Shown here in pieces: positions 2,341 to 47,299 of a stretch of DNA of 64,000 nt (position 1 is the first letter of the stretch; each line of letters starts with the position of its first letter). The stretch is taken from contig MTMD02000010.1 in NCBI GenBank assembly GCA_002010065.2, positions 7,478 to 71,477 on the forward strand, given 5' to 3'. The notes below the pieces were generated by a model, which saw only the letters and a program-made list of their open reading frames with translations, did no database searches and had not been told where the DNA came from. This DNA comes from Candidatus Pyrohabitans jungbluthii. GTDB taxonomy: Archaea; Hydrothermarchaeota; Hydrothermarchaeia; Hydrothermarchaeales; BMS3B. The translations under genes and the position numbers were made by a program.

Positions 2341-2515
2341 TCTATTGTAGCAGAGGCAACCGCTGGTGATTACCGGAACGAAGATTGCGGCGTGACGGAG
2401 TTGCCCGTCTCACGCGTTAGCGTGATAGGGTGACGAAGAAAGCGCTACCATATCGTGGATCTTATTCAGCTCGGAAGGGGTAATAGAGGCGGGGTAGGCG
2501 CCCCTATCCGGCGAA
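2341..2515 (+). ncRNA. Candidate structured RNA between thioredoxin and alba
   Basis: No open frame is seen here, yet the sequence is GC-rich between AT-rich flanks and is full of complementary segments. GTAGC (2347-2351) pairs with GCTAC (2444-2448) and would close a domain of about 100 nt. Inside are CTGGT-GATT-ACCGG (2363-2376) and three alternating segments, GCGTGA (2390-2395), TCACGC (2410-2415) and GCGTGA (2420-2425), where the middle one can pair with either neighbour. GTTGCCC (2400-2406) also pairs with GGGTGAC (2428-2434). A TATA-like ACATAAATAC at 2308-2317 could start a transcript near 2340. It matches no RNA I know; RNase P and SRP signatures are absent. The alternative is a repeat-derived spacer. 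Confidence 0.4.
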
Positions 2516-2880: not shown

Positions 2881-5295
2881 ATGCCCCGCGTGGTTAAAGG
2901 TTTTCTTATCGACGCTGACTACGAAACCGTCGAGAGGAAAGCGCTTATCAGGCTGTACCTGCGTGATGAGCAGGGAAAGAGTTTTATCGCCTACGACGAC
3001 TCCTTCTCACCCTATTTCTTCGCTCTTCCCGGCGATGAGCCGGAGAAGGTTAAGGATAGGATACTCACCTCAGACGAAGAGGGTATTATACAGAGCATTA
3101 CCATAGAAGAGAAGAGGTTCTTTGGCAAACCCGTTACAGCGCTCCGCATCACTGTACGCCACCCTCAGGATGTGCCACGAATACGGGAGCGGATACGCCA
3201 CCTTGAGGGCGTAGATGCGATAAATGAACACGACATCCTATTCGTTAGACGCTACCTGATAGACCGCGGGATTAAACCTCTTACCTGGCTCACGATGGAG
3301 GTTGAAGAAAGGCAGGACAAGCTCTTTGTGCGCAGAATTGAGCAAGCGGAGGGTGAGTTACCCGGAAGCGGAGCTTCCGGTGTGACGAAGCCTCCAAAGC
3401 TAAGGGTGGCGGCTGTAGATATAGAGGTTTACAATCCAAAGGGGGCGCCGCGCAGCAAGCAGGATCCCATAATCATGGTGAGCATAGCTACAAACGACGG
3501 CATGGAGAAGGTGCTAACCTGGAAACCTATAGAAGGCGAAGCGTACGTTGAGACCCTAAGCAGCGAGGAGGAGATGCTGCTCAGGTTTGCGCAGCTTATG
3601 CAGGAAGGCGATTACGATGTGATCGTGGGGTACAACACAGACAACTTCGACTTCCCGTACATTAAAGATAGGGTGAAGAAGCTTGGCATTTCCCTGCCCC
3701 TGGGCAGGCTAAACGCAGAGCTTGAGGTGAGCAAGAGAGGCCCGCTACCAGAGGCGAGAATTCGTGGCAGGGCGCATGTTGATTTATACCCCATAGTGAG
3801 GCGCCACGTTAAGCTGAACAGCTATGTGCTCGAGAGCGTGGTGGAGGAGCTTCTTGGGATAAAAAAGGAGAAGATAGACGGGGATAAGCTCTTCACATAC
3901 TGGGATGCTGGCGGGGAAAACCTTGCTATGCTCGCCAGGTATTCTCTTGAGGATGCGCGGGTTACCCTGAGCCTGGCTGAGAAGTTTCTCCCTCTCTACT
4001 ACGAGCTCTCCACTATCGTGGGACAAAGCCTAAACGACGTTGCGAGAATGACGTCTGGACAACTTGTCGAATGGCTGCTCATGCGGTTCGCTACGCCAAG
4101 AGGAGAACTAATTCCCAACCACCCCGCTGGCGAGGAGTATGCAGCGCGGGCGAGTGCGACCTACGTTGGTGGGTATGTACGTGAGCCGAAGCGGGGGTTA
4201 GTCGAGAACATAGCGGTGTTTGACTTCCGTAGCCTTTACCCAAGTATAATTGTGAGCCACAACATAGACCCGAGTACGCTGATTATAGGCAACTGCGAGG
4301 AGAACCGCGCGCCAGGTTTAGACTACTGCTTCTCCCTGGATAAGGAGGGATTCATACCCGAAATTTTAAAGGGGTTGATCCAGCGCAGGGCTGAGATAAA
4401 GCAGCAGATGAGGCAGGTAGGCGAGGATAAAAGAAGGATGCTGGACGTCGCTGAGAAGGCACTTAAAATCCTTGCAAACTCCTTCTATGGCTACATGGGC
4501 TACCCGCGAGCGAGGTGGTACCGCCGCGAGTGCGCAGAGAGCGTCGCCGCCTTTGCGAGGATGTACATAAAGCAAGTTATGCGCATCGCCGAGGAGGAGT
4601 TCAACCTGGAGGTGGTGTACGGCGATACAGATTCGCTCTTCGTGGTAATTCCGCCTGCTAAGCGTGAGGTGGTGCAGGAGTTTCTGCGCAAGGTCAACGC
4701 CAGCATGCCGGGCATGATTGAGCTGGAATTCGAGGGCTTTTATAAGCGAGGACTGTTTGTTACAAAAAAGAGGTATGCGCTTCTGAGTGAAGAAGGCAAG
4801 ATGGTGGTCAAGGGCTTAGAGTTTGTGCGCCGCGACTGGGCACCGATAGCGAGAGAAACCCAGCGGGAGGTGCTTCGCATTCTGCTGGAGGAGGCAAACC
4901 CCGAGAAGGCGGCAAAGCTTGTTCGCGACGTTATTCAGCGAATACGTGAGCGCAGGGTAACTCTTGAGGACATAACAATATACACCCAGCTTACAAAGCG
5001 AATAAAGAGCTATAAAAGCTTAGAGCCCCATGTGGTGGCGGCGCAGAAGCTTAAGGAGCGCGGTCGCGAGGTGGCGCCTGGCATGATTATAGGATACATA
5101 ATAACCAAGGGCGCAAAGGCGATATCACATCGCGCTCTGCCTGTGGAGTTCGCCAAGCTTGAGGATTATGACCCGGATTACTACATAGACAACCAGATCC
5201 TGCCCGCGATACAGCGCATATTCGAGGCGATAGGCTACACCCGGGATTACCTCAGGGAGGGGATTACTCAGACCAGCTTAAGCAAGTGGTTTTAG
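2881..5295 (+). CDS. polB: Family-B replicative DNA polymerase
   Basis: The 804-aa protein has all hallmarks of archaeal family-B polymerase. The 3'-5' exonuclease has Exo I DIEVY (residues 180-184), Exo II GYNTDNFDFPY (about 250) and Exo III YSLEDARVT (about 354). The polymerase has motif A DFRSLYPSII (about 451), motif B KILANSFYGYMGY (about 530), motif C YGDTDSLF (580) and KKRYAL (about 630). The C-terminus ends QTSLSKWF, a PIP box for binding the PCNA clamp. Just before Exo I, residues about 159-170 (ELPGSGASGVTK) are encoded by a perfect hairpin resembling intergenic elements in this window, so this linker looks like an in-frame insertion. It could be the main or a secondary replicase. 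Confidence 0.96.
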   Translation: MPRVVKGFLIDADYETVERKALIRLYLRDEQGKSFIAYDDSFSPYFFALPGDEPEKVKDRILTSDEEGIIQSITIEEKRFFGKPVTALRITVRHPQDVPRIRERIRHLEGVDAINEHDILFVRRYLIDRGIKPLTWLTMEVEERQDKLFVRRIEQAEGELPGSGASGVTKPPKLRVAAVDIEVYNPKGAPRSKQDPIIMVSIATNDGMEKVLTWKPIEGEAYVETLSSEEEMLLRFAQLMQEGDYDVIVGYNTDNFDFPYIKDRVKKLGISLPLGRLNAELEVSKRGPLPEARIRGRAHVDLYPIVRRHVKLNSYVLESVVEELLGIKKEKIDGDKLFTYWDAGGENLAMLARYSLEDARVTLSLAEKFLPLYYELSTIVGQSLNDVARMTSGQLVEWLLMRFATPRGELIPNHPAGEEYAARASATYVGGYVREPKRGLVENIAVFDFRSLYPSIIVSHNIDPSTLIIGNCEENRAPGLDYCFSLDKEGFIPEILKGLIQRRAEIKQQMRQVGEDKRRMLDVAEKALKILANSFYGYMGYPRARWYRRECAESVAAFARMYIKQVMRIAEEEFNLEVVYGDTDSLFVVIPPAKREVVQEFLRKVNASMPGMIELEFEGFYKRGLFVTKKRYALLSEEGKMVVKGLEFVRRDWAPIARETQREVLRILLEEANPEKAAKLVRDVIQRIRERRVTLEDITIYTQLTKRIKSYKSLEPHVVAAQKLKERGREVAPGMIIGYIITKGAKAISHRALPVEFAKLEDYDPDYYIDNQILPAIQRIFEAIGYTRDYLREGITQTSLSKWF
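3357..3390 (+). repeat. Hairpin element inside polB (copy B)
   Basis: GTTAC (3357-3361) pairs with GTGAC (3382-3386), and CCGGAAGC (3362-3369) pairs perfectly with GCTTCCGG (3373-3380) around a GGA loop; one unpaired T separates the two arms. The outer part, GTTACCCG then GTGACGA, recurs at 2400-2438, 25657-25680 (minus) and 47249-47273. In polB it stays in frame and lies in the linker between the N-terminal domain and the exonuclease. Confidence 0.5.
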
Positions 5296-25517: not shown

Positions 25518-25615
25518 GGCATCAACCGCAGGGTTTATAAAATATATGTTTATAAAATATATATAGCATATATATTTTTATAGCTTAATTTATACCTGTG
25601 AATATGTGTTCCTGG

Positions 25616-25680
25616 AGGTCTCGCCAGCTCTTTCAGAGCTGGCTTCGACTTCCCTCGTCACCCTCACTTCGTCGGGTAAC
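25616..25680 (-). repeat. Dispersed hairpin element in the leader of the PhoU gene (copy C)
   Basis: Read on the minus strand, GTTACCC (25674-25680) and GGGTGAC (25657-25663) flank GACGAAGTGA, and a second perfect hairpin CCAGCTC-TGAAA-GAGCTGG follows (25624-25642). The first part shares GTTACCCGA--GAAGTGAGGG-GACGA with 47249-47275 and the outer arms with 2400-2434 and 3357-3390. It lies between an AT-rich promoter (25540-25590) and the ribosome binding site of the next gene, so it would be transcribed in its leader. Confidence 0.55.
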
Positions 25681-25696
25681 GGTGGAGGTTCCTGTA

Positions 25697-26701
25697 ATGC
25701 AGACGCGCAAGATATACATGAGTGGCGGAAGCACCTACATAATGTCCCTGCCCAAGAAGTGGGTGCAGCGGGTTGGGCTTAGAGAAGGAGACAGCGTCGT
25801 CGTAACAGAGCGCGAGGGCGCCCTAACCATAGAGGCTCGTGAGAGGGAGGAGGAGAGCAGGGAGGTGACGATTAAAATCTCGCAGGTAGAGAGCGGCGAG
25901 GTTCTTGAAAGGCTGCTGATATCCTACTACCTGATAGGCTACGACACCATTAAAATTCTCCTCGACGACTCGCAGCACCTGAAGTACCGCGAGGTGGCGC
26001 GTAGAATACCCGACCTCCTTGTGGGCGTGGAAATTGTGGAGGATACCGACGAGGCGCTGACACTGGAGATCCTCCTCAATGAGCGCAAGATGCCCACACT
26101 AAAGGCAATGCGCAGGATAGATTTAATAGTGAGCTCAATGCTTGCAGAGCTCATACGCGTGCTGGAAGGTGAGGATGAGGCGCTGGCGAGAGATATTATT
26201 GAGCGCGAAAAGGAGGTTGACCGCCTTTATTTCTTAGTGGTGAGGCAACTCAAGGGGGCAGTGCGCTACCATCAGCTGGCTGAGAAGCTGGGCATCGCAA
26301 ATCCACGAGATGCTCTGGGCTACCGAATGGTGGTTAAGAGCTATGAGCGCATTGCTGACCACTGCGAGAACATCGTCCAGCTTTACCTCAGGCTCCTCGC
26401 GGAGGGGGGAGATGAGCTTGCAGATTGCGCAGCGCTTGCAAAGCTCGCATCTCAGGCATACAGGAAAGCCTCAAAGGCGTTTTTTGCTCTTGACATGCAT
26501 CTCGCCCATGAGGTCTTCTCCCACCTCAAAGAGATAAGGGAGCTCCAGGAGGACATACTCAACCGTCTCTTCCAGAGCAACATAAAGGCGAGCAGGGCGA
26601 TGCTCCTCAAGGGGATGATGGACAGCCTCAACAGAATCGCAAGCTACTCCAGCGACATCGCGGAGATAGCGATTAACATGAGCGTTGAGGTGCCGGGGTG
26701 A
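25697..26701 (+). CDS. AbrB-PhoU family regulator
   Basis: The 334-aa protein has an N-terminal AbrB/MazE-type DNA-binding segment (residues 1-50: MQTRKIYMSGGSTYIMSLPK then VQRVGLREGDSVVV) and a long helical PhoU part with two repeats (about 80-330; EREVDRLYFLVVRQLKGA and AYRKASKAFFALD). This architecture is the usual archaeal PhoU-like regulator, linked to phosphate uptake. ATG 25697 is chosen because GGTGGAGG lies 8 nt before it and homology begins there; an earlier GTG would read through the hairpin element. No phosphate transporter is next to it; a sensor kinase lies convergent. Confidence 0.88.
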   Translation: MQTRKIYMSGGSTYIMSLPKKWVQRVGLREGDSVVVTEREGALTIEAREREEESREVTIKISQVESGEVLERLLISYYLIGYDTIKILLDDSQHLKYREVARRIPDLLVGVEIVEDTDEALTLEILLNERKMPTLKAMRRIDLIVSSMLAELIRVLEGEDEALARDIIEREKEVDRLYFLVVRQLKGAVRYHQLAEKLGIANPRDALGYRMVVKSYERIADHCENIVQLYLRLLAEGGDELADCAALAKLASQAYRKASKAFFALDMHLAHEVFSHLKEIRELQEDILNRLFQSNIKASRAMLLKGMMDSLNRIASYSSDIAEIAINMSVEVPG

Positions 26702-35410: not shown

Positions 35411-35488
35411 CTCAACTCCTTCAAGTAGATAGGAACCACCAGCGGGTTCCTATTACCTCCTGCAACCATATGATTCATAATATCCACC

Positions 35489-47246: not shown

Positions 47247-47299
47247 AAGTTACCCGAATGAAGTGAGGGCGACGATTCAAAGAATCTCGACCAAGTTAC
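47247..47299 (+). repeat. Dispersed hairpin element with flanking direct repeat (copy D)
   Basis: GTTACCC (47249-47255) and GGGCGAC (47267-47273) flank GAATGAAGTGA, followed by a second hairpin GATTC-AAA-GAATC (47274-47286). AAGTTAC occurs at both ends (47247-47253 and 47293-47299), as a target-site duplication would. It lies between a terminator and the next gene. It shares its first half with the element at 25616-25680. Confidence 0.55.

Follow-up and report, generated by a model that had tools for sequence, protein, structure and literature searches.

A lineage-specific family of small, putatively mobile palindromes in Candidatus Pyrohabitans, with one copy in frame in a family-B DNA polymerase gene

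The hairpin found inside the gene for a family-B DNA polymerase (PolB) of Candidatus Pyrohabitans very probably, judging from sequence comparison, belongs to a lineage-specific family of small mobile palindromes with the behaviour of bacterial REP and RPE elements. Palindromic elements that sit in frame are known chiefly from Rickettsia and a small number of other bacteria. The gene lies in a stretch of 64,000 nucleotides (hereafter the window), whose genome (G000) was compared with that of JdFR-17 (G001) and with three congeners (G002, G003 and G004). These are mostly draft metagenome assemblies, in which genes were taken as ORFs with Pfam support. Because G001 is about 82% complete, absence of a copy from it was used only where a contiguous empty site could be read.

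The element in the PolB gene reads GTTACCCGGAAGC-GGA-GCTTCCGG-T-GTGAC-GAA and contributes 11 residues to the protein (Table 1). It runs from base 3 of codon 159 through base 2 of codon 170, beyond the N-terminal domain and ahead of the Exo I motif (D180-I-E182). Its hairpin (3357-3386) lies within the reading frame, and codon mapping confirms the placement around residues 159-170 given in a preliminary description of this DNA. The same description called the hairpin perfect. A stable hairpin is indeed present, with a predicted folding energy as single-stranded DNA of -10.3 kcal/mol (z = -4.6; none of 200 shuffled sequences folds equally well), but it is only near-perfect: a single T is bulged out, and the third pair of GTTAC/GTGAC is a T.G wobble.

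PolB matches to named records assign the window to the Ca. Pyrohabitans / Hydrothermarchaeota lineage. JdFR-17 is the closest named record (99% protein identity), and metagenome-assembled genomes come next, at 94%, 84% and 81%. In G000 and G001 the gene exceeds that of G004 by exactly 33 nt and those of G003 and G002, which carry small gaps elsewhere, by 36-39 nt. Alignment of PolB with its relatives, proposed earlier as a check, reveals a single 11-residue gap ahead of Exo I (GELPGSGASGVTKPPKLRVAAVDIEV in G000 and G001, GELPELKVAAVDIEV in G004), and the residues are missing at 94%, 84% and 81% identity as well as in all of the more distant PolBs aligned. At the nucleotide level, the filled junction of G000 and G001 is GAGGGTGA[GTTACC...GTGACGAA]GCCTCC and the empty junction of G004 is GATGGGGAACTTCC; precise empty sites are found in G004 and G002.

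The protein appears to tolerate the insert. PolB is under strong purifying selection, with the frame maintained and the catalytic motifs intact: dN/dS is 0.041 between the insert-bearing G000 and G001 (dS 0.17) and 0.056 against G004, in line with the claim that the element entered without breaking the frame. In an AlphaFold2 model built from a 10-sequence alignment (mean pLDDT 85), no internal segment other than residues 158-170 falls below 50. This makes a disordered linker the most likely state of the insert peptide and bears out the linker location first proposed. The description of PolB as an essential replicase is not justified, because the large subunit of PolD is encoded in the same genome; PolB may be neither the main nor the sole replicase.

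Table 1. Elements, genes and empty sites discussed in the text. Number ranges are window positions and L labels denote loci.
Feature	Position or locus	Strand	Details
Palindromic element in frame in polB	3357..3389	+	33 nt, GTTACCCGGAAGCGGAGCTTCCGGTGTGACGAA; filled in G000, G001; empty in G004, G003, G002
PolB copy, 5' arm	3357..3369	+	outer GTTACCC fixed, inner arm variable
PolB copy, 3' arm GCTTCCGG-T-GTGAC	3373..3386	+	bulged T at 3381; G3384 x T3359 is the conserved T.G pair
Family-B DNA polymerase, 804 aa	2881..5295	+	exonuclease and polymerase domains intact; Pfam-supported ORF
Second copy, intergenic	2400..2437	+	38-nt unit, TCTCACG arm type; starts GTTGCCCG, not GTTACCCG
Third copy, short-arm type	25654..25680	-	in larger composite hairpin region, start of ORF 25598-26701
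Fourth copy, decayed (GTTACCCGAATGAAGTGAGGGCGACGAT)	47249..47276	+	ends GCGACGA; no stable fold, z = 0.17
DHH-family phosphoesterase	L060		in-frame copy, insert-free orthologues
tRNA-binding-domain (tRNA_bind) protein	L079, L117		10-residue insert VTRGTAPGDG splits GE and ERQ exactly; insert-free orthologues
PMT_2-like membrane protein	L054, L120		in-frame copy, insert-free orthologues
TIM-barrel protein	L127		in-frame copy, insert-free orthologues
Empty orthologous site	L048:1645		empty in G001
Empty orthologous site	L073		after tRNA-like 3' end; empty in G001, G004; one G fewer in G run
Empty orthologous sites	L110, L111		G001 copies, empty in G000
Empty orthologous sites	L120:5177, L124		G001 copies, empty in G000; L124 has two units
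Empty orthologous site	L099		G004 copy, empty in G001, G000

Across the family, the unit is a hairpin of 26-40 nt with fixed ends, GTTRCCC...GTGACGRA, and arms that are variable yet complementary. All 110 curated copies begin with GTT, followed by A or G and CCC, while the 3' end is GTGACG, then A or G, then A (101/110) and G (95/110); the third stem pair is T.G in 107 of the 110. Inner-arm types include GGAAGC, GGAAC, CAAC, CAGC, TGAGC and TCTCG, among others, and stem length varies, with loops mostly of 3 nt. Pairing between the arms reaches 85.8% of cells, above the 76.2% of shuffled versions and the 33-47% of slid ones. Read along the minus strand, the element is TTCGTCACCC...GGGTAAC, and the PolB copy, when folded as that strand, leaves its CGTC unpaired. 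GACG, which is CGTC on the other strand, is found close to the 3' end of roughly 100 of the 110 copies, the AAC tail (complement of GTT) is invariant among them, and the consensus stem on that strand opens with an A-T pair followed by a C-G pair. Copies at one shared site, where the gene preceding a TFB-like gene ends (L126 in G001, L104 in G002), have different but complementary arms.

The earlier suggestion to search the genome for the motif with covarying arms led to a high-copy hairpin family. The exact pattern GTTACCCG-N0-30-GTGACGA occurs 13 times in the genome, compared with 0 for a reversed-pattern control, and twice in the window, compared with 0 in 100 shuffles. A covariance model trained on 37 G000 copies matched 53 places in G000 (a circular count, given the training set) and, independently of training, 52 in G001, 10 in G004, and 2 each in G003 and G002; these counts are good to about 10%, as some matches are one palindrome called on both strands. 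No convincing match was found in other genera among 41 genomes scanned, and one match in a distant archaeon (E = 0.0099) is at chance level. A second scan of 297 genomes gave matches at E <= 0.001 solely in G000-G004 and none in the 292 further genomes. Spread by known viruses was also considered, and one fixed-length pattern of the element had no match in viral contigs. On this sequence record, the family is shown to have expanded recently in the Pyrohabitans lineage. The majority of copies lie outside ORFs or at ORF ends.

Comparison of close relatives defines the inserted unit. At least eight sites, namely PolB and at least seven more, have a precise empty site in a relative (Table 1). What is gained is GTTRCCC...GTGACGRA, between a purine and usually a G, with no duplication of the target or at most one ambiguous G; a one-base duplication is possible because right flanks mostly begin with G, and at L124 there is none. 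A target-site duplication of at least 2 bp, the criterion for MITEs, was not found at the filled/empty junctions. Over 43 and 41 non-redundant flanks, a purine occupies position -1 in 89% and G position +1 in 73%, and T is enriched at -8, to 56% (p = 3.6e-6, uncorrected for about 100 comparisons). Deletion instead of insertion could account for several of the site differences, for example at L078, where JdFR-17 may carry a trace (GGGTGACGAAG). G000 (L048/L196) seems to hold an empty site for G001 L134, but this case was left out of the count, as the match on either side is limited to about 50 bp of a repeated sequence.

Units also accumulate and change at a given locus. All 22 same-strand neighbours within 60 nt are exactly 1 nt apart, head to tail, compared with 2 inverted pairs. 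Orthologous arrays differ in size, with three units in G000 and five in G001 at L066/L113, one and three at L062/L120, and 3 vs 2 and 2 vs 1 units at further sites; the G000 unit GTCTCGCGAAGCTTCCGG (L066) is an apparent fusion of two arm types. At 3 of 10 compared orthologous sites (L046/L116, L054/L120 and L050/L128), the inner hairpin matches clearly better when inverted, with the outer ends unchanged, which suggests hairpin template switching in this small sample.

Copies are not confined to intergenic DNA. In-frame inserts with insert-free orthologues occur in PolB, a DHH phosphoesterase, a tRNA_bind protein, a PMT_2-like protein and a TIM-barrel protein (Table 1), in agreement with the Rickettsia-like behaviour that had been proposed from the PolB copy. 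With a length of 30 or 33 nt, a unit leaves the frame intact and gives an insert of 10-11 residues; a consensus unit of either length has two open frames and a third that meets TGA in GGGTGACG, and the in-frame copies use the open two. The TIM-barrel copy of G000 (L231, G000:C2:483500-485000, reverse strand) reaches 87 nt through a second hairpin segment and stays in frame. A nested segment of this kind is also seen in the G001 orthologue of L074 (L167). A Hel308-like helicase (L061) has a copy in its C-terminal tail, where the length of orthologues varies.

Three more hairpins in the window were said earlier to share the outer sequence of the PolB copy. They do belong to the family, but the copy at 2400 and the decayed copy at 47249 depart from that sequence at their start and end, respectively (Table 1), and the minus-strand copy, placed at 25657, starts at about 25655. 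This last copy sits at 25600-25710 within a composite of several hairpins (CCAGCTCTTTCAGAGCTGG and others), which suggests nested insertion of different palindrome families. Other repeated hairpins were noticed. One, CGGAAGGGGTAATAGRGGCGGGGWAGGCGCCCCTAT, lies at 2472-2509 and upstream of several genes, and the main element is found at the same position inside this hairpin in at least six loci (L044, L058, L070, L109, L111 and L112); for this hairpin, the exact pattern CTTCCCTCGC...GCTCGGGAAG is rare, occurring twice in G001 and not in G000. Another, the near-perfect hairpin ATAGGAACCACCAGCGGGTTCCTAT at 35429-35453, is of a sequence type that flanks the main element at L048:1645, L077 and L125. 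An Rfam match to FsrA near the PolB copy scores 18.7 bits against a gathering score of 80 and is attributed to chance.

Could these hairpins be something other than mobile DNA? Residues 159-170 of PolB might be an ordinary linker extension with a palindrome that resembles the repeats by accident, as the linker is variable among distant PolBs, but an insert with exact termini and with the inner arms of other copies, of which exactly 33 nt are missing in the 94% congener, makes such an accident scarcely credible. It could alternatively be proposed that the family consists of RNA elements (terminators, stabilisers of mRNA 3' ends or regulatory hairpins) kept and multiplied by selection, with the PolB copy as a by-product. 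The concentration of copies between ORFs or at their ends would fit, as would the conserved T.G, which forms a G.U pair in RNA on one strand. Against selection for such a role, copy number falls from about 50 to 2 within one genus, close relatives differ in presence and in array length, copies have both orientations relative to genes and also lie inside coding frames, and no Rfam family is above threshold for the window copies; this explanation is regarded as improbable.

As a further rival, replication slippage and hairpin template switching could copy a near or distant hairpin into a nick with no dedicated enzyme, a route compatible with the array turnover, with the inverted inner hairpins and with the failure to find a Y1 transposase in G000-G004; the GC clusters of yeast mitochondria are similar, and their mechanism is unsettled (PMC4478555). 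The fixed ends, the exact boundaries at dispersed sites and the preference for R/G and T(-8) point instead to sequence-specific recognition, so that enzyme-free origin is considered unlikely, although a good deal less so than a role in RNA. In the preferred reading of a mobile palindrome, the comparisons show insertion of the exact unit GTTRCCC...GTGACGRA after a purine and usually before a G, with one duplicated G at the very most, and units accumulate head to tail. Since the ends are conserved in sequence (T.G in 107/110) and the arms in complementarity only, a trans-acting enzyme probably reads the ends of the folded single strand, much as GTAG REPs are recognised by Y1 transposases. Slippage and hairpin template switching would afterwards alter arrays and inner arms at their existing sites, as the better inverted fit at 3 of 10 sites suggests. 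Genic copies of 30 or 33 nt in a frame that avoids the built-in TGA are retained as inserts of 10-11 residues, PolB being one such case.

Candidates for the mobiliser were sought in the genomes. A search with Y1_Tnp (PF01797), the one transposase family searched, gave no match in G000-G004, and a Y1/RAYT transposase was rejected as resident mobiliser there. G007, from the same family, has 13 Y1_Tnp matches and zero hairpin elements, so the two are unlinked. NucS/EndoMS was considered because of the conserved T.G mismatch, and its cutting pattern would fit the central T.G of GTTAC/GTGAC at the 5' boundary; it was rejected, as PF01939 is absent from the genome. The fullest version of the proposal, held tentatively and at somewhat less than even confidence, is that of an archaeal palindrome, mobile now or very recently, that would insert as single exact units at R/G sites without target duplication by means of an enzyme other than Y1/RAYT, re-insert at unit ends and repeatedly modify DNA replication and repair proteins.

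The closest parallels are found among bacterial repeats. CGTC-tagged REPs are known from five bacterial phyla, include Rickettsia RPE-4 and RPE-6 as well as Neisseria dRS3, and have no associated transposase; many of their intragenic copies fall in genes for the replication and repair of DNA, among them that for DnaE of R. conorii (Di Nocera et al. 2013, PMC3733652). They are defined by an unpaired CGTC (or TGTC/CCTC) end, A-T at the first and second stem positions, a tail fitting CCA, a stem of 8-9 bp and a loop of 4-5 nt, with head-to-head dimers predominant and head-to-tail ones negligible (PMC3733652). The Pyrohabitans family shares the unpaired CGTC tag, a palindrome of 20-40 nt, heterogeneous arms, intragenic copies and the lack of an associated transposase gene (PF01797 searched in G000-G004). 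It differs in its AAC tail, its C-G second pair, its 22 head-to-tail neighbours vs 2 inverted pairs and its archaeal host; its loops are mostly of 3 nt, with stems of varying length and arms of several types. As tail, second pair and dimer orientation do not fit, the family falls outside the four described CGTC families; its behaviour is that of CGTC-REPs, and it may be a related archaeal family.

Other systems offer partial likenesses. RPE-1 and other Rickettsia palindromic elements are also tolerated as in-frame palindromes in unrelated protein genes, a likeness of behaviour, whereas the Pyrohabitans elements are shorter than RPE-1. GTAG REPs and REPINs, mobilised by RAYTs, are likewise small non-autonomous hairpins with conserved ends, clusters and high copy number, but the present family lacks the GTAG tag, and no Y1 was found in the window genome or in four congeners. 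Yeast mitochondrial GC42 and other organelle double-hairpin elements are short, GC-rich, strain-polymorphic palindromes, with merging and shuffling of units and an AG at the insertion junction (PMC4478555); these elements belong to organelle genomes, and in GC42 the AG is a putative target duplication (PMC4478555). In the Pyrohabitans family the A is part of the element itself, which leaves a single G as the most that could be duplicated. REP-like palindromes as such have already been reported in archaea (PMC12306157). A literature search, which did not cover most subscription journals, found no paper on such elements in Hydrothermarchaeota.

Altogether, this hairpin family of hot-vent archaea is a clear counterpart of the palindromic elements of Rickettsia and other bacteria. 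The in-frame habit is recorded here for an archaeon, where filled and empty sites are resolved to the single base and one of the genes entered encodes a DNA polymerase of replicative type. The family also shows one way in which core proteins gain small new peptide loops. Differences among close relatives at many sites reveal the exact insertion unit, the target preference and the dynamics of arrays, so that the manner in which CGTC-type palindromes move without a transposase gene can be tested directly.
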